Positions 17,850 through 43,835 of a stretch of DNA of 64,000 nucleotides are shown here, piece after piece. The stretch comes from Acidobacteriota bacterium (lineage in GTDB: Bacteria > Acidobacteriota > Blastocatellia > RBC074). The DNA is taken from the NCBI GenBank assembly GCA_016196035.1, contig JACPYM010000002.1, positions 124,001 to 188,000 on the forward strand, given 5' to 3'. Position numbers and translations under genes: made by a program. The notes below the pieces were generated by a model. That model had not been told where the DNA came from, did no database searches, and worked only from the letters and a program-made list of their open reading frames with translations. Positions within the stretch are counted from its first letter, which is position 1; every line of letters begins with the position of its first letter.

Positions 17850-18085
17850 TCACGGAAAGAGCGGAGTCCGATCGAAGAGGTGGTGCGGCTTGAGCATGAA
17901 TTCCAACCACATCAAGTGGGCTTCCCTTTCCAAAGGCCGCCGCTGACGATTTCGCCGTCCTCATCCCGCACCAAGTGATGCGCCGAACTGGTGTATCACA
18001 CAACCACATCTGTGTTTGCTACCGGCTCCGGCGGCGTGCTGAAGATAGGCAGGTTGACCGCGAAGATTTCTCCCGGCTGCTAGTA
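17850..18085 (-). pseudogene. Decayed copper amine oxidase-like C-terminal fragment
   Basis: Conceptual translation of the minus strand gives QPGEIFAVNLPIFSTPPEP, then NTDVVV, a TGA (17998-17996) where the family has Trp, then YTSSAHHLVRDEDGEIVSGG. After a frameshift near 17905-17930 it reads MWLEFMLKPHHLFDRTPLFP and stops at 17850. The DVVVWYT...HH...LKP...FDRTP spacing resembles the C-terminus of copper-containing amine oxidases. An in-frame stop plus a frameshift mark it as a remnant. It lies directly downstream of the tyrosinase-like/haem lipoprotein pair and may have belonged to the same copper-oxidase unit. Confidence 0.55.
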
Positions 18086-18098
18086 ATCGCAGCACTCT

Positions 18099-21000
18099 TT
18101 ATTTCTGACACACACCACCAATGAGACCGAGGCCCGTCCCTGGATCAGCCAGGAGTTTCGGGCTATGCGGGTCGGTGCTGAACCAGAACGTCTTGAACGG
18201 CACTTCGCCGTGGGGCATGTAGTGGTTCCGGAAAGTACTCGTCGAAGGATCGCAGACGTTCTGCTGGATTGAGAACTTGAACCCGCCAGTCATCTGGCTG
18301 AGGCTGGTCCAATCAAGATACGACGGCTGCGCCACGTGACAGGTGCGGCAATCCTTACGCACCACGTTCTGGTACAGGTCAGTGTTGCTCGACCAGCCAG
18401 ACAGCCAGACGGGCGGCGTATCCGAGGCAATGCAGCCTGAGTTGTTGACGCCGCACGGGTACAGGCCGTTGATAAGTCCAACAATCGGGTCGTTCGCATT
18501 CGTGTTGTTCGGATGCGTGGCGGCGATGATGGCGTTCAACTGCCGGAATTGCTCCTGCTGATTGCTCAGGGTATACCCATCCACTAGGTCGTATACGAAC
18601 GAAAACACGTCGAACGGCAGGAACGAGGCACCTTCAACCTTATTCGTGGAGGAATTGTAGCCTCCCCCGTGACAAGCGAGGCAGAGTTGCGGGAGTTCCT
18701 TGTTGAGTTCGCTGTCGAGCGCCGGATTCTTGAAAAGCGTGCCATCGGCCTTGTACGCGTAGAACTGCACTGCGTCGTCATTGGACGTGCCGTCGTACTC
18801 CATCGCCACAGTCGCGAGCACACTCGACAACTTGTTGTGGATCGCGTCGTAGATGGCGCTGGCGGCCGGGCCTGCAGGGCCTGTCCCATAGTTGCTGACG
18901 TAGCAGGCCGCTTTCCCGGTGGCCGCATTCTGCTGGCGGCAATGCATGTCGCGGCCAAATTGCAGGTCGCCATTGTTGTAGTAGACAGCGTTAGCTTCGC
19001 CAGCGACGGGGGGTATTGTCGGGTCGTCGTTGAATCCGTTGGTGGCTTTCCAGTGGCTGAACGTATCACGCTGAGTCGCACCAATCGCCCCAAGACTCGT
19101 GTAGTACGCGGTGGCGACCGGTGTCGGGTCAAGTGGGTCACTCCCTAGTGGCGGCGGGATGATCGGGAGGCCGAGATACGGCACGTCGTGTGGAGGCAGA
19201 TCAACCGACAGGATGACCGGTTGGCCGGTGGTGGTGCTTGCCGGATCGAACCCCCTACAGGCGCCGTACGGAAAAGGCGGGAAGCCATCACTCGATCCGT
19301 CGGGTAGACCGGAATTCACGGTCAGCGTTTGCAAGATGGCATCGGGCCCGCTGTTTGGGTGAATCTCCAGCGTCACGGCTGTATTCGGCGGAAGCCTGAA
19401 CAGACCATTGATCTTTTCCGTCACCTGGAAGTCATTATGGTTCGGCCCGCCGCTCGAACTGGTATAGCTCACGTGCAGCTTGAACGGAAACGCCGGCGCG
19501 CCTTTGAGGGCATTGGTCGGATCGTCGAACACGGTCAGCTTGATGCAAGCCGTGTTGCTGAAGACCGTGTCGGCGTTGAACGCGCTAAAGTGCCGCACTT
19601 TCCCGCGATACCGGTTGCCGACTTTTGTCAGCGTGCCGTCCTCCAGCCAGATGCCCCTCGCCTCGTCGAACGTGAAAAGTGGGATGGTCGCCGGCGCGGT
19701 CGCCAGGGCCGGCGGGTGAATCGTCAGCTCAATGTCAGCCGTGGTGCCCGGCGCAAGGCGCAACGGTTGGCCGCCGCCATCCGTGAGCGTGGCATCAATC
19801 GCGCCATAACTCACCATCGTGGCGTTCCGCCCTCGATAGACCGCGGCGCCGTCGCCGGGAATCGCGTTCGACTGGTTGAGGTCATAGGCGAACAGATACG
19901 AATGGACCGGCCCCGAGGCCGGGTTGCCCCTGGCATCCACCAGCGTATTTGGTCCAATCGTGACCTGCGCGCCGTTATTGCGCTCGAAGACCGCTCGCCC
20001 ACCGGCGCCGGCATCGAAGGTCGCGTGCTGCGCCTGGTCGAGTTTCAGGCTCAACCCGGCAGCCGGCCCATATACGGCGCGTGAGAGCAGCGCAAAGGCA
20101 GCCTTCTTGACATTGATGACGTAACGCTTGCTTTCCGGGACGCTGGCTAAGAACGCGCCAGCGGGGTTGGTCTTCACCAGTGTGCCGTTCACGCTGACCG
20201 CTGCCTGGTCAATAGGCGCGCCGGTCGCGCGATTGGTCACGCTGCCGCTGATGCGCACCTGGTTGGGGCCAGTCCGGATGGTGAGCCGACTCGTCGCGAA
20301 CCCGCCTTTCCCATCCGTGACCTGCACCGAGATGATATACGTGCTCGGCGCCGACGGCAGCTTCCAGTCAATCGCCGGGGCATCCACGGATTTCAGGCTC
20401 GCGTTGCTATCGGCCCACTTGAAATGCAGTCTGTTGCGGTCGCTGTCCGTCGCCGTGACCGTCACCCTGAGGACTTCACCAGGGCTCGCGCTACGCACAT
20501 CCTGACCGCCGCGCGTCGCCCGCAGACCGAGGATTACCGGTAAAGAGTTGGTTGAGGTAATGTCGAAGGCGCTCGTTCCCAACAGATCGGCGGCCGCCAA
20601 CGACACCGTCCGCGTAATGACACCGCCGCCAAAGGCCGCGCTGAGCCGATAGTTGCCGGCAGCCGGCACTTTCGGCAGCACATATTGTCCGAAGCTGTTG
20701 CCGGTGACAGGTCCCGCGACCACGGCGCCGCCGGAATTGACCAGCGAGACCTTGGCCGCCTCGAGCGTTCCGAACTGCTGGCTTTCCTGGTAACACCAGC
20801 GGGCGGGTTTGCCCATCAGCACCGTCCCGCGCAGCGTGCCAGGCTCGGGGGCGATCAGCGCATCGTGGTCGAGCACGATTGTCTCGCCCGCAATCGAAAT
20901 GATCGCCGGATCGCAGGCAGAGATGAAACCGTCACCCTCCAGGCACAACTGGTAACGGCCCGGCTGTTGGCGCGGTATCGCGAAATAGCCGTGCGTGTTC

Positions 21001-21305
21001 GTGGCCACCTTGGGAGTCGCGGTGTTCTGCGTCAGGTTCTTGAGGAAAACGCGGATGTTCGGCAATCTGATCGGCGGGATTTTCAAATCCTGGCGACCGG
21101 CGCCAATAGCGGCAAAGCCGTGAACCTCGCCGCCGCGCAGCACGCGTAGTTGCGCGGCTTGCCGCGCGTTCTCGGGGCTAGCCAGCTTCTGACAACTCAG
21201 GATGGCTAACGCGAACAGAAGCGTTAGCGCGACAAGCAGCCTCTTCGCAGGCACGAGGGCTTTTATCGAAGTGCGAGTGTCAGACGCTGATGTTCCTGTC
21301 TTCAT
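18099..21305 (-). CDS. Large lipoprotein with carboxypeptidase-regulatory-like repeats and two c-type haem motifs
   Basis: This 1068-residue protein begins with a signal peptide ending in AILSCQK, giving lipid-modified Cys38 and an outer-face or periplasmic location. The N-terminal half holds beta-sandwich domains: a carboxypeptidase-regulatory-like segment (ATNTHGYFAIPRQQPGRY), a PKD-like part (KWADSNASL to VQVTDGKGG) and another regulatory-like repeat. The C-terminal third carries two haem attachment sites, CLACH near residue 875 and CRTCH near 985, plus further cysteines. It probably transfers electrons. AAGGAGACC precedes the ATG. It starts 48 bp after the tyrosinase-like gene, so the two are probably co-transcribed and functionally paired. 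Confidence 0.8.
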   Translation of the reverse strand: MKTGTSASDTRTSIKALVPAKRLLVALTLLFALAILSCQKLASPENARQAAQLRVLRGGEVHGFAAIGAGRQDLKIPPIRLPNIRVFLKNLTQNTATPKVATNTHGYFAIPRQQPGRYQLCLEGDGFISACDPAIISIAGETIVLDHDALIAPEPGTLRGTVLMGKPARWCYQESQQFGTLEAAKVSLVNSGGAVVAGPVTGNSFGQYVLPKVPAAGNYRLSAAFGGGVITRTVSLAAADLLGTSAFDITSTNSLPVILGLRATRGGQDVRSASPGEVLRVTVTATDSDRNRLHFKWADSNASLKSVDAPAIDWKLPSAPSTYIISVQVTDGKGGFATSRLTIRTGPNQVRISGSVTNRATGAPIDQAAVSVNGTLVKTNPAGAFLASVPESKRYVINVKKAAFALLSRAVYGPAAGLSLKLDQAQHATFDAGAGGRAVFERNNGAQVTIGPNTLVDARGNPASGPVHSYLFAYDLNQSNAIPGDGAAVYRGRNATMVSYGAIDATLTDGGGQPLRLAPGTTADIELTIHPPALATAPATIPLFTFDEARGIWLEDGTLTKVGNRYRGKVRHFSAFNADTVFSNTACIKLTVFDDPTNALKGAPAFPFKLHVSYTSSSGGPNHNDFQVTEKINGLFRLPPNTAVTLEIHPNSGPDAILQTLTVNSGLPDGSSDGFPPFPYGACRGFDPASTTTGQPVILSVDLPPHDVPYLGLPIIPPPLGSDPLDPTPVATAYYTSLGAIGATQRDTFSHWKATNGFNDDPTIPPVAGEANAVYYNNGDLQFGRDMHCRQQNAATGKAACYVSNYGTGPAGPAASAIYDAIHNKLSSVLATVAMEYDGTSNDDAVQFYAYKADGTLFKNPALDSELNKELPQLCLACHGGGYNSSTNKVEGASFLPFDVFSFVYDLVDGYTLSNQQEQFRQLNAIIAATHPNNTNANDPIVGLINGLYPCGVNNSGCIASDTPPVWLSGWSSNTDLYQNVVRKDCRTCHVAQPSYLDWTSLSQMTGGFKFSIQQNVCDPSTSTFRNHYMPHGEVPFKTFWFSTDPHSPKLLADPGTGLGLIGGVCQK

Positions 21306-21353
21306 AGTGGTCTCCTTGTTTGCAAGCGTTACGGCAACCTGAATGACTGCTTA

Positions 21354-24300
21354 TCAGGCTCGTTCAATGCGGTACCAGACCTTCCAGTCTCCCAGATTCT
21401 CCGGTTCGATCTGTTCGTCGCCCGGCCCGTAGCTGCCGAGCCAGGACTCCGGCGGGCCGGTGAAAATGCGCCGGTAGGGGCAGAGTTCGTCGTCCGGGTC
21501 GAAGGTGTCCAGTTCGATACCCATAATCTCAACTGCCAGATGATCCTCGACGAAATCCTCGAACAGGGGCAGGTTCAAATGAATCGTGTTGTGCCCGGGC
21601 GCGTCGGAAATGCTGAAGTGCCCTTTGCCCGGCAGGCGCAGTTCCCGGAGCAGTCCGCCATTGTTGCGAGAATGGACTCTGGCGTGGAAGCGGAATTCGC
21701 CTGCGCCTTTGATGAAAGGGTCGTGGTCATCCAGGATCTGAATCCGCTCCAGCACCAACCGAACTTTCTGTCCCTGCTCCCGTTCAGTCGGGTCTTCCCA
21801 CTTTACATTGGGATCATTGGCCAACTCGACAAAGCCGCGCGCGCGCTGCCGCAGAAACTCGACCTGACGTTCCAACACCGGACGCCAGCGGCTGAGCTTC
21901 GGCGTCAGGTTCAGGCGTTGATGGAAGAGCGAGAGCAATCGCCGCTCAGGTTCGTGCAGGCGGGCGGCCTTGCTGACTTGAATGTTGATCTGGAATCCGC
22001 CCAGCACGCGGCGCTGGTCGGTGCGCACCTGGTTGACGTCCACGATGAACTTCTGCCCTTCCTTGATGCCCGCCGGCAGCGTGACGGTGACCAGCCCGGC
22101 CAGGTTGTCGCCCCAGAAAGGCGGGATCGGCAGATAGGTCGGCCCCGCGACAAACAGTCTCAGCGTGTGCGAATCGCGGATGCCCACGCTGCCGGGCGCA
22201 TGCCGCAGATTGCGATAGTTGACGATCTCTTCGACATTGGCGCCGGGCAGGTAAAGCTCCACCACCGACTGGCGCGGCAGGTTGTTCCAGAAGAAGACCA
22301 ACTCGTCCAGGCCTTCGGTTGACTTCCAACGTTCGGCATCGAATTGCCAGCGGGCGGTCTCGCTGGCTTCAGCCTCGCTGCGTTTGATCAGGCCTTCAAC
22401 GACACCCGGCGCCTGAGCCAGCCAACTGCTTCTCAGGTGTTCAAAGCCGTGCCCGCCTCCGTGTTCGTGGCCGTTGCCTTTATCGCCTACGCAGCAGACG
22501 GCGGGCCGGGCTGGGCGCGGCGTTGGCCTTTCAAGCTCGTCTTCTTTCTCGTGGTGTCCCGCGTGTGCGCGCTGTGGCGTGGGTTGCTGGTTGGGCTGCC
22601 GGCGGCGCGCGCGTGTGAGATTGATGTCGAAGCTGTGTTGAATGGCGCGCGTGATCTCAGACCCCGGATTGGCTGTCCTGAGAATCAGCAGATTGCGTTG
22701 CGACAGATTGTCAGATGTGCCCGGCGTGGAGCCGTTGACCGTCGGGTCGGGCGGATACCAGACCTCGACCACCATGCATTGGTGTTGGCTGATGAGCAGA
22801 TCGCGAATCGGAAACAGACCGCTTCCGAATCCGCCATCGCCGGTGAAGGTTTGCGGGAATCTGGGCGCGCCCTGGTTGATGTCCAGGTACGCGCCGAAGA
22901 AGCTCGGCAATTCGCCGCCGCCGGTGGGCGGGAAATGCGTTAAGTTTTTCGGGTCGGTCTGCGTCGTCATCGCGGCGCTAGTCGCCACGCGCGGCTCGGC
23001 AAAGAACGGAATCGAAGCCAGTTCGTTGGTCGCGGTTCGCCCCAACAGCGCGATGCCGCTGGCGGCATCAGTGCGATAGGTCAGCGTGTTGTCGAACTCG
23101 ACGTTCGCCGTGCCCCAGCGCAACAGTCTGAACGAGGCGCGCACTTTCGGCGCCGTCGGGCTGGTGTCGGTGCCGGTGACGCTCTGCATCCGCACTTTGG
23201 CCAGCGCGAAGTTGTGGACGTTGACCCCGCTGACCTGAGTCGAATATTCCAACACCGACTGCTCCTGGTCGGGCGTCAGAGAGTCGAAGTTGTCGGCGCC
23301 GGCAGTGCCGTCGCGCAGGTTGTCTATCGCCTGCTGGATGAAAACATTTGGGTCTGTCCAACCCGCCGGCACGCCGAACCGGGCCACGCCCTGATTCACC
23401 TTGAGAACGCGCGTGTCAATGCTGAGCCAGGAAGTTGTGCCGTCGAGCATGTAGGGGTTCGAGTCGATCTGCAGGCGCACGCGCGAGGCATCGTCCATCG
23501 CCTCGTTGCCCGAACGGTCGCGGGTTTTAATGACAAGCTTGAGGTCTTTGAAGTCGCCAGCGTTCATTCCGGCGAATGTGGCATTGCCGCTGAAAGTCAC
23601 GCGGTAACTCCAGGTCACGCGCTGCGGCGCGCTGGGATGCAGCGACGGGTCTTCGGGCAGACCGTTGCCAATCGCGGCGACGTCCACCAGCCCGGCCAGC
23701 GAGACGTCGGTAATCGCATCCCGCAATTCGAGCGCGGGCGCGTGGGCGTTGTCGGTGTAAAGCCCGGCGGCGCGCACCGGCGGCGCGATCAATCCCTGCA
23801 ATTGCGGTTCGACCTCCGGCGGCCAGACGATGGGCGCGGCCCGCGCCGTGCGATCCTGCACCAGCACGTAAAAAGCATTGTCGAACACGCTCTGCCCGCT
23901 CAATGCAATCGCATCAACTTGATCCTGCGAAAAGCTGCTGCGATCCAGATAAACGGTGATCTCCGGCGCTTGTTTTTCCTGAAGCAGCGGAATCTCGATG
24001 ATCTCCTCGTGGTCGAAGCCGTCCAGCCGTTCGTAGGTCGTTCCCGCCGGAAGAGCGGCGGCGAAGGCGTCGAGCAGCGTCAGCGTGGTGTTCGAGCCGA
24101 TCAGGGCAATCATCCGCACCTGCCCCGCCGCTCGAATCAGATCGCCCTGTCGGAAGAAGGTTTGGAAACTCGTGCCGCTGCCGGTAATCGTCGTGCCGCT
24201 GCTGGAGACGGTTCCGGCGGCAGCCGGGATTGAGCCGTCAGGTTTGTGTTTGCAGGTCAGATGGCCGGTCACGCGAATCAGGCTGTTCTTGAAGCCAGTG

Positions 24301-25955
24301 GCAGTCGGCGTGAAGCTGAGATTGTCCGAAGCGAACGGCCCCTCCGGAACTGTGTCAACGTCAACTGTTCCCGCGCTGCCATCGAAGACGAAGTCTTCAA
24401 TGAAATTCACACCCTGTTGCCGCTCGTTCGGATTGATCGGCGCGCCGGTTGTGATGATCAGATTGCGCGGCGGTAACGCGATGACCGGAGCAGCGCCGCC
24501 CGCTTCGCGCAGCACTTCACATTGCAGCATCAGTTCAAGCGGCCGGCCAAACGGCGGGTTGAAGGAGGTGGGATCGGGTCGCACATTTATCTTGACGCGC
24601 AGAGTGCCGTTGCCGTCCGTAAGGTTGATGCCCTGAATGGCGTTGGCAGGTTCGACGCTGTCGGTGCTAGTCGAGAATTCGCGCAGGATGGTCAGAATCT
24701 GCGGTGACGGGTATGCCGATCCGTCGGCTTGAACCGGCGCGAAGGTTACGAAACGCGGTTCGCGTTTCGCCCACACGTCGTCAATGAAGCCATGCCAGGC
24801 AAAGAAGCGTGGGACGTGGTTATTCGTGACGGGCGGTGCCAGGTCGCCGTTCAGGTAGTGCCCCGGACCGTGGTAGCCGGAATCGGATGCGCCAGCTACC
24901 GGGATCATCTGACCAGAGCTCGAGGTCGCGGGTGTGTCTAAGATAAAAGGGTTGAAGTCCCTGGCGAAGAACTGCCCCATCTCGCCGGCGTTTGCGAATT
25001 CGCCCAGGTCCCCATTCCAAAAAGTGGTGTGGACTGGGGCGATATCCACTGTCGGCGGCGTGTTGCTCCAATCAACGACCGGGTGGCCGGGGCCTTGAGC
25101 ATTCCATACCACATCCAGATTGGCAGGTGGGGGAGGATTGGAGGGAGTGTCGTGCGCACACGTGTTGAGGGATTGCACTGCGTCCTGGCCCGTGCGCGCC
25201 AGCCAACGGTCGAACAACACCAGGTGATCGCGATGGAAAGTGAAGAATTCAGCGCCGACCTGTGTGCGGCTGATCTGCTTTTTGCGCCGATGCTGCCCGA
25301 CGCCAGTCTTGAAAAACGGCGTGGCCACCGTCCACGACGCCGCTCCGCTGTTCGGATGCCAGACGTGATGCACCTGATGAAAGATGTCGGTGAAGTCCTT
25401 TTCCGAAAGGATCGTGCCATCGCGGTCATAAATGGGCGGCACGGGGAAGACCGGCTGGCCGAGCAGCCGTTTGCGCAGATCGAGCACCCAGCGCATGAAC
25501 GCCCAATAGCGATAGCTGAATGGAGCTTTGATCTCGTCATCCAACTCCATCCCATTGCCCGAGCTGACGTAATTGCGGAGAGTGTTGTAGTAGTTTCTCG
25601 CCGCAGTACCCAGATCGTTTGTTGTCCAGGTACCGGGGAACGGGCTGCCGTTCAACGCCGCTGGCACGCCCGGCCCGACCGGAAGTGTCAACGAATCGTT
25701 GTCGGGGAAGACATCCCAGCCGTCCCACGGGCGCACCGGCGGCAGCAGGTACAAGCTGCGCCAGGCTTCATAGCGGCTGAGCATCACATTGAGGTGGTGA
25801 TCGAGAAAGGCGTTCCCGGCCACGTTCGAGGTGGGGCGATTGTCGAACGTCCAGACGAGGTGATTCTTAGTTCCGCCGGGCGGCGGGCCCAATTCCGCCG
25901 TCCCCAGGTCTCCATAAATCAGCGAAGTGACGAAGTTGATGTTATTGGCTCCCAT
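21354..25955 (-). CDS. Giant tyrosinase-like type 3 copper protein
   Basis: This 1533-residue protein has an N-terminal domain carrying tyrosinase signatures. The CuA region has His192, His196/197 and FFTFHRDHLVLFDRW (His241, His244), matching the family's WHR box. The CuB region has YHGPGH (His362, His366) and FFAWHGFIDDVW (His388), matching HNxxH and the DPIFWLHH-like box. Known members oxidise phenols with O2. About 1100 further residues form beta-rich domains, including a His/Cys-rich stretch near 1125-1170 (AVCCVGDKGNGHEHGGGHG) that may bind copper. No signal peptide is visible, so its export is unexplained. AAGGAGCACC precedes the ATG. The next gene encodes a di-haem lipoprotein. Confidence 0.75.
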   Translation of the reverse strand: MGANNINFVTSLIYGDLGTAELGPPPGGTKNHLVWTFDNRPTSNVAGNAFLDHHLNVMLSRYEAWRSLYLLPPVRPWDGWDVFPDNDSLTLPVGPGVPAALNGSPFPGTWTTNDLGTAARNYYNTLRNYVSSGNGMELDDEIKAPFSYRYWAFMRWVLDLRKRLLGQPVFPVPPIYDRDGTILSEKDFTDIFHQVHHVWHPNSGAASWTVATPFFKTGVGQHRRKKQISRTQVGAEFFTFHRDHLVLFDRWLARTGQDAVQSLNTCAHDTPSNPPPPANLDVVWNAQGPGHPVVDWSNTPPTVDIAPVHTTFWNGDLGEFANAGEMGQFFARDFNPFILDTPATSSSGQMIPVAGASDSGYHGPGHYLNGDLAPPVTNNHVPRFFAWHGFIDDVWAKREPRFVTFAPVQADGSAYPSPQILTILREFSTSTDSVEPANAIQGINLTDGNGTLRVKINVRPDPTSFNPPFGRPLELMLQCEVLREAGGAAPVIALPPRNLIITTGAPINPNERQQGVNFIEDFVFDGSAGTVDVDTVPEGPFASDNLSFTPTATGFKNSLIRVTGHLTCKHKPDGSIPAAAGTVSSSGTTITGSGTSFQTFFRQGDLIRAAGQVRMIALIGSNTTLTLLDAFAAALPAGTTYERLDGFDHEEIIEIPLLQEKQAPEITVYLDRSSFSQDQVDAIALSGQSVFDNAFYVLVQDRTARAAPIVWPPEVEPQLQGLIAPPVRAAGLYTDNAHAPALELRDAITDVSLAGLVDVAAIGNGLPEDPSLHPSAPQRVTWSYRVTFSGNATFAGMNAGDFKDLKLVIKTRDRSGNEAMDDASRVRLQIDSNPYMLDGTTSWLSIDTRVLKVNQGVARFGVPAGWTDPNVFIQQAIDNLRDGTAGADNFDSLTPDQEQSVLEYSTQVSGVNVHNFALAKVRMQSVTGTDTSPTAPKVRASFRLLRWGTANVEFDNTLTYRTDAASGIALLGRTATNELASIPFFAEPRVATSAAMTTQTDPKNLTHFPPTGGGELPSFFGAYLDINQGAPRFPQTFTGDGGFGSGLFPIRDLLISQHQCMVVEVWYPPDPTVNGSTPGTSDNLSQRNLLILRTANPGSEITRAIQHSFDINLTRARRRQPNQQPTPQRAHAGHHEKEDELERPTPRPARPAVCCVGDKGNGHEHGGGHGFEHLRSSWLAQAPGVVEGLIKRSEAEASETARWQFDAERWKSTEGLDELVFFWNNLPRQSVVELYLPGANVEEIVNYRNLRHAPGSVGIRDSHTLRLFVAGPTYLPIPPFWGDNLAGLVTVTLPAGIKEGQKFIVDVNQVRTDQRRVLGGFQINIQVSKAARLHEPERRLLSLFHQRLNLTPKLSRWRPVLERQVEFLRQRARGFVELANDPNVKWEDPTEREQGQKVRLVLERIQILDDHDPFIKGAGEFRFHARVHSRNNGGLLRELRLPGKGHFSISDAPGHNTIHLNLPLFEDFVEDHLAVEIMGIELDTFDPDDELCPYRRIFTGPPESWLGSYGPGDEQIEPENLGDWKVWYRIERA

Positions 25956-26348
25956 GATGGTGCTCCTTCCGTGTTAGTGATGAAATGAAATTCAGGCTGC
26001 TTGTAATTGTGTGTAGAACCCGCAATCGAAGTGTCAGTTGCTGGCAAACCAACCGCTATCCGACAAGCTGCCAGCTTGTCGGATGACTCTAAAGCGCATG
26101 CATTCGGACAGGGGTTTCGAACACGCTCTTAGTCTGTAGCGCCGCGTTCGTATCACCTCGGCGCCCTGCGGCTGCTTTCAACTACATATGGGTTGAGACA
26201 CAAAATCATTTCGGCCCTGCGCATCTAAATTTCCAGTGGCCTGCGCAACCGTGTGACTTTCCGAACGCACGCCAACCCAACGCGCGCATTGAGAACCCTG
26301 CCCCCCTGTGCCAGAATCCCCCGCACTTCACCAACCAACGCAACACTG
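25956..26348. other. Divergent intergenic region with one palindrome
   Basis: This 393-bp gap lies between the divergent tyrosinase-like and lipid kinase genes. It contains a 25-bp palindrome at 26059-26083 (TCCGACAAGCTGCCAGCTTG and so on), a member of the same family as 9434 and 43753. Promoters for both genes should be here, but none is convincing by eye. The in-frame extension upstream of the kinase start (from 26253) has no family likeness and is not counted as coding. Confidence 0.6.
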
Positions 26349-43752: not shown

Positions 43753-43835
43753 TGTCCGACAAGCTGCCAGCTTGTCGAGGCTTTCCCACAGGACGAATTG
43801 CGGGAAACTGCGACAAGCTGGCAGCTTGTCGGACA
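43753..43835. repeat. Paired palindromes of the GACAAGCTGGCAGCTTGTC family
   Basis: Two 25-bp copies (43753-43777 and 43811-43835) face each other across 33 bp, each self-complementary, and together they form a large inverted repeat. The element separates the Ala and Val tRNA genes. Confidence 0.92.

Follow-up and report, generated by a model that had tools for sequence, protein, structure and literature searches.

Layout of the locus

The window, by which we mean the whole stretch of 64,000 nucleotides analysed here from an Acidobacteriota bacterium (contig JACPYM010000002.1, positions 124,001 to 188,000), contains two large adjoining genes, the upstream one encoding a giant protein and the downstream one a lipoprotein (Table 1). 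A previous reading of this DNA, made from sequence only, had placed the giant open reading frame 48 bp upstream of a lipoprotein with CxxCH motifs, and both reading frames and their spacing are as described; the two genes share a strand and each has a good Shine-Dalgarno sequence. The genes immediately on either side lie on the opposite strand and have no evident relation to copper or haem; one encodes an AMP-binding enzyme of the acyl-CoA ligase type and the other a protein of the diacylglycerol kinase family.

Directly downstream of the lipoprotein gene lies the decayed amine-oxidase-like gene that had been included in the oxidase unit. The remnant itself is real, with internal stops, a frame change and a match to PF01179 (E 0.12 in one frame and 0.0017 with two frames joined by hand), but it amounts to about 80 broken C-terminal codons from which the intact enzyme domain is absent, and nothing was found to tie it to the unit. 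Upstream of the giant gene, at a distance of 103 bp, a 27-bp palindrome (TCCGACAAGCTGCCAGCTTGTCGGA) occupies 26058-26084. A second, diverged copy is present at 43808-43834; the pair, which far exceeds chance expectation, looks like a dispersed repeat. Overall, the previous observation on this locus is largely real and requires one correction, which concerns the first copper site.

Table 1. Features of the copper/haem locus, with positions in the window
Feature	Positions	Strand	Basis
Giant protein gene, 1533 aa	21354-25955	-	ATG start, AGGAG upstream
Putative type 3 copper core, residues 190-400	24756-25388	-	Motifs, Pfam, profile comparison
Predicted first copper site, H196-x3-H200 ... FxFHR H241	25233-25370	-	CuB-type spacing; canonical CuA second His missing
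Predicted second copper site, H362-x3-H366 ... PRFFAWH388GFID	24780-24872	-	CuB motif, profile alignment
Chassis, residues 665-1400	21756-23963	-	Common to proteins with other N-terminal heads; HQC...SDNLSQRNL...NPG motif
His/Cys-rich linker, residues 1129-1170	22446-22571	-	Composition
Lipoprotein gene, 1068 aa	18099-21305	-	Lipobox C38, carboxypeptidase-regulatory and Ig-like domains, C-terminal di-haem domain
Haem c motif 1, CLACH 875-879	18669-18683	-	CxxCH
Haem c motif 2, CRTCH 986-990	18336-18350	-	CxxCH
Copper amine oxidase C-terminal fragment, decayed	17850-18098	-	PF01179; internal stops and frame change

The putative copper core and the chassis of the giant protein

The giant protein is built from a putative type 3 copper core, a beta-rich chassis, a His/Cys-rich linker and a C-terminal domain. 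Of the CuA and CuB histidine sets that had been assigned to it, the CuB set (H362/H366/H388) is convincing, but the canonical CuA motif, defined for tyrosinases as H-xn-H-x8-H (PMC11608171), is absent: position 232 is a glutamine, the nearest upstream histidine is H222, and the first predicted site instead comprises H196/H200/H241, so that both sites have the form H-x3-H-xn-H. By sequence, insect prophenoloxidase, arthropod hemocyanin and PvdP likewise have two sites of this form, and the double-CuB arrangement has been described for the insect enzymes and, among bacterial ones, for PvdP, the only bacterial example named (PMC11608171).

Several lines of evidence bear on the identity of this core. 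First, PF00264 (tyrosinase) matches residues 344-396 with E 0.0064 and 17.3 bits, which is below the curated cut-off of 22.6 bits and thus sub-threshold. Second, profile comparison with hhalign aligns the CuB segment with the bona fide tyrosinases of genome G376 (E 4e-4) and the first site with a secreted tyrosinase encoded in genome G036 (E 0.003). Third, H196, H200, H222, H241, H362, H366 and H388 are all kept in a homologue of about 62% identity from Chryseolinea serpens, a member of another phylum. Finally, in 200,000 shuffles of the domain, relaxed patterns for the sites, which were composed after the sequence had been seen, occurred 7 times for the first site, 35 times for the second and never for both. 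Motif order, profile comparison and conservation therefore support the prediction that the giant protein carries a tyrosinase-like type 3 copper core. Like the bacterial tyrosinases (PF00264; the Streptomyces MelC2, Bacillus and Verrucomicrobium enzymes), it has a CuB H-x3-H-xn-H with PxFxxxHxxxD, FxFHR at the third histidine of the first site and the same site order; unlike them, it has no second CuA histidine at -9, a sub-threshold Pfam score and a giant leaderless chassis, and the unit in the window includes a haem partner and no caddie gene.

All PDB profile matches of the copper domain were insignificant, and they included arthropod hemocyanin and AsqI, which is described as a metal-free relative. 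The giant protein has no significant match to the PDB or Pfam entries for hemocyanin, and it differs from insect prophenoloxidase, hemocyanin and PvdP in the fusion of its copper domain to an unrelated body. AlphaFold models built from two sequences had a pLDDT of 28 (residues 1-465) and 31 (residues 164-409), and Foldseek found no fold match for the latter low-pLDDT model. A further, degenerate copper domain at residues 30-165 (the H32/H54 segment) was also considered and rejected, its weak AsqI match being not significant.

The His/Cys-rich region noted near residues 1125-1170 is borne out, with 8 His and Cys within the 40 residues of 1130-1169, a count that was reached by 10 of 2000 shuffles. 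Several other proteins with the same chassis have His/Cys-rich stretches toward their C-terminal ends. In the C. serpens homologue, a frame change near the His-rich linker (L002:13381-13636) splits the gene in the deposited genome. Residues 578-660 (23976-24224) contain a GTVSSSGxxVTGxGTxF beta module that also occurs in a phage-structural-like protein (L004) and in two proteins of the haem family described below (L044, L043). The phage-structural-like protein (genome G010) was rejected as a relative of the giant protein, given that the match is confined to this short module.

No Pfam or PDB family was matched by the chassis, and NCBIfam gave nothing useful. The chassis recurs in a plasmid protein of Paraburkholderia sprentiae, which was the only match in a scan of plasmids, in a protein of genome G600, which belongs to the order of Chryseolinea, and in five further Acidobacteriota; HxC is invariant in the alignment, which also shows a QRN motif. 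Viral contigs scanned with the giant protein and the lipoprotein gave no matches. The N-terminal heads of these proteins differ. In genomes G600 and G402 the chassis is fused to copper-radical oxidases of the galactose/glyoxal-oxidase type (PF09118, E 4e-19 and 2e-20), which are complete in their FC, RWYP, YHS and VTH motifs, that is, the Cys-Tyr pair, the axial tyrosine and two histidines, and which differ from the head in the window in both fold and copper centre. The protein of G340 has a kelch propeller head, that of P. sprentiae has a HEIAE peptidase-like head, and those of G215, G378 and G227 have unassigned heads. On the P. sprentiae plasmid (NZ_CP017565.2), a gene for a PQQ-dependent methanol/ethanol dehydrogenase lies two genes upstream of the chassis gene (L006:7999-14313). 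Beside the chassis protein of G227 are a small CYASGG-repeat protein and a protein kinase-LanC fusion, an arrangement like a lanthipeptide-type cassette (L019:3419-7740).

The giant protein has no signal peptide, as previously reported, and an in-frame stop lies a few codons upstream of its ATG, so that no leader is hidden there. This property is not peculiar to the gene, because by inspection none of the chassis proteins found has a leader sequence. That a single leaderless chassis appears to bear chemically unrelated copper oxidases was the unexpected part of this analysis.

The di-haem family and its tyrosinase neighbours

The lipoprotein has a hydrophobic leader and, by inspection, a lipobox (LSC38), from which export and a lipid anchor are predicted, and the CxxCH motifs that had been placed near residues 875 and 985 are present. 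No Pfam or PDB family matched its haem domain. A search of samples of 396 genomes from the phylum and 149 from one class gave a haem family of six loci, namely the window and G036, G085, G376, G394 and G755. Both CxxCH motifs and three methionines are invariant among the five members aligned, and the sixth member also has both CxxCH motifs. The lipoprotein resembles the exported c-type cytochromes found in outer-membrane electron conduits in its predicted lipid anchor and export, two CxxCH motifs and conserved methionine, whereas it differs from them in its long N-terminus of carboxypeptidase-regulatory and Ig-like domains and in that no porin partner was seen next door.

Whether the two genes are paired elsewhere depends on the side from which the question is approached. 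Relatives that match the giant protein over most of its length occur in Chryseolinea serpens and SZUA-115; neither genome was found to encode the haem protein, and from these relatives alone the pairing appeared not to be conserved. That conclusion was abandoned once the haem family had been surveyed: a tyrosinase gene of another architecture lies just upstream of the haem gene, on the same strand, at two of the five other loci (G036 and G376). In G036, a short same-strand cluster encodes a secreted tyrosinase-VWA protein, a 537-residue protein and the haem protein, the last of which is split by a frame change. The tyrosinase has a double-CuB layout like that of the giant protein and is the product of the only PF00264 gene of this 6.8-Mb genome, and the 537-residue protein has an HxC...AQKNL motif resembling the chassis, although the match is weak (hhalign E 0.023). 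In G376, a clear classical tyrosinase (E 3.7e-25) is followed directly by the haem gene, and two more tyrosinases are encoded elsewhere in the genome. Both paired tyrosinases carry Sec-type leaders, unlike the giant protein. Contig C32 of G376 (L052:5888-9046) also encodes a 1052-residue chain in which a laccase-type multicopper oxidase (HTHG, WYHPHVHG, HPFHIH and HCHILDH motifs) is fused to a complete tyrosinase domain.

The remaining three haem loci (G085, G394 and G755) have no adjoining tyrosinase, and G085 and G394 have none genome-wide. The haem proteins are 24-44% identical over long stretches. The three tyrosinases themselves (window, G036 and G376) give no mutual BLAST match at E 0.01, and those of G036 and G376 have no detectable full-length similarity to that of the window. 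In the tree of haem proteins, the paired members are scattered among the unpaired ones instead of grouping in a single clade, a pattern that suggests gain or loss on more than one occasion. We found no description of a tyrosinase and di-haem protein pair in the literature. That the same two kinds of gene adjoin in two distant relatives, with tyrosinases that are otherwise unrelated, hints at an undescribed partnership between a phenol-oxidising copper enzyme and a cytochrome. The proposed coupling of a phenol oxidase to c-type haems gains support from these two loci and loses it with the close relatives of the giant protein.

A candidate copper/haem oxidation unit

We propose that the two genes may form a small copper/haem oxidation unit in which a copper phenol-oxidase module works together with an exported di-haem protein, and we assign this reading, which we consider the most likely, a probability of slightly under one half (about 0.48). 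Its basis is the motifs, their conservation, the adjacency in the window and the recurrence of a tyrosinase with a di-haem protein in two other lineages. Type 3 copper enzymes are known to oxidise phenols and catechols with O2. The double-CuB centre of the giant protein, with its presumed copper, would most likely use O2 to convert phenols or catechols into o-quinones. The di-haem protein would join the same redox chemistry, either taking electrons from the catechol or semiquinone products or feeding the copper site or the quinones; it could also cycle quinones, and electrons may flow in either direction. The main difficulty is one of compartment, given that the haem protein is predicted to be exported whereas no known signal is present in the giant protein; to meet the lipoprotein, the latter would need a non-classical route into its compartment. 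Since leaders are missing from all chassis proteins found, a dedicated export route or release by lysis is as possible as a function in the cytoplasm.

Of the other explanations, the one that fares best, although we consider it unlikely, is that the type 3 copper domain is just one of several interchangeable heads in a family of modular, leaderless proteins, where a shared body serves to display or deliver the head, and that the adjoining haem gene is incidental. The variety of heads joined to this body and the uniform lack of leaders are consistent with such a family, as is the finding that no di-haem protein is encoded near the other chassis genes inspected, but the two other haem loci that lie beside tyrosinases of a different architecture are left unexplained. 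Those loci also argue against a neighbourhood due to chance, or to an insertion hot spot shared by large exported proteins, with no functional link. The unit is indeed patchy, with the copper head in one and the full-length haem protein in five of the 396 phylum genomes, and it is flanked by the decayed amine oxidase and the dispersed palindrome. Nevertheless, the probability that two of the five other haem loci would have a tyrosinase within 5 kb is approximately 4e-6, a rough estimate that assumes one tyrosinase per ~8 Mb and ignores the clustering of exported proteins, and given the recurrence upstream and on the same strand in two other lineages we regard this explanation as quite improbable. 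Least probable of all is a non-catalytic copper domain with a structural role, either a hemocyanin-like binder of O2 or copper or a metal-free relative: the double-CuB layout, the hemocyanin and AsqI matches and a His-rich linker that could store metal are compatible with it, but the retention of all six candidate ligands in the homologue from another phylum counts against a metal-free relative, though not against an O2 carrier.

The proposed copper/haem unit can be extended into a more speculative picture, which we think rather doubtful. The leaderless beta-rich chassis, with its metal-binding linker, might carry interchangeable copper-oxidase heads of the double-CuB type 3 and copper-radical kinds out of the cell, and the tyrosinase version might be wired to the lipid-anchored di-haem cytochrome, linking phenol oxidation to extracellular electron transfer. 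To our knowledge, bacterial tyrosinases are O2-dependent enzymes without a cytochrome partner, and we found no paper to the contrary. A recurrent association with an exported di-haem protein, if true, would provide a possible electron-transfer partner for bacterial phenol oxidation together with a testable gene pair. The sharing of one leaderless body by chemically unrelated copper oxidases likewise raises a question of export, which could be tested in a cultured strain.
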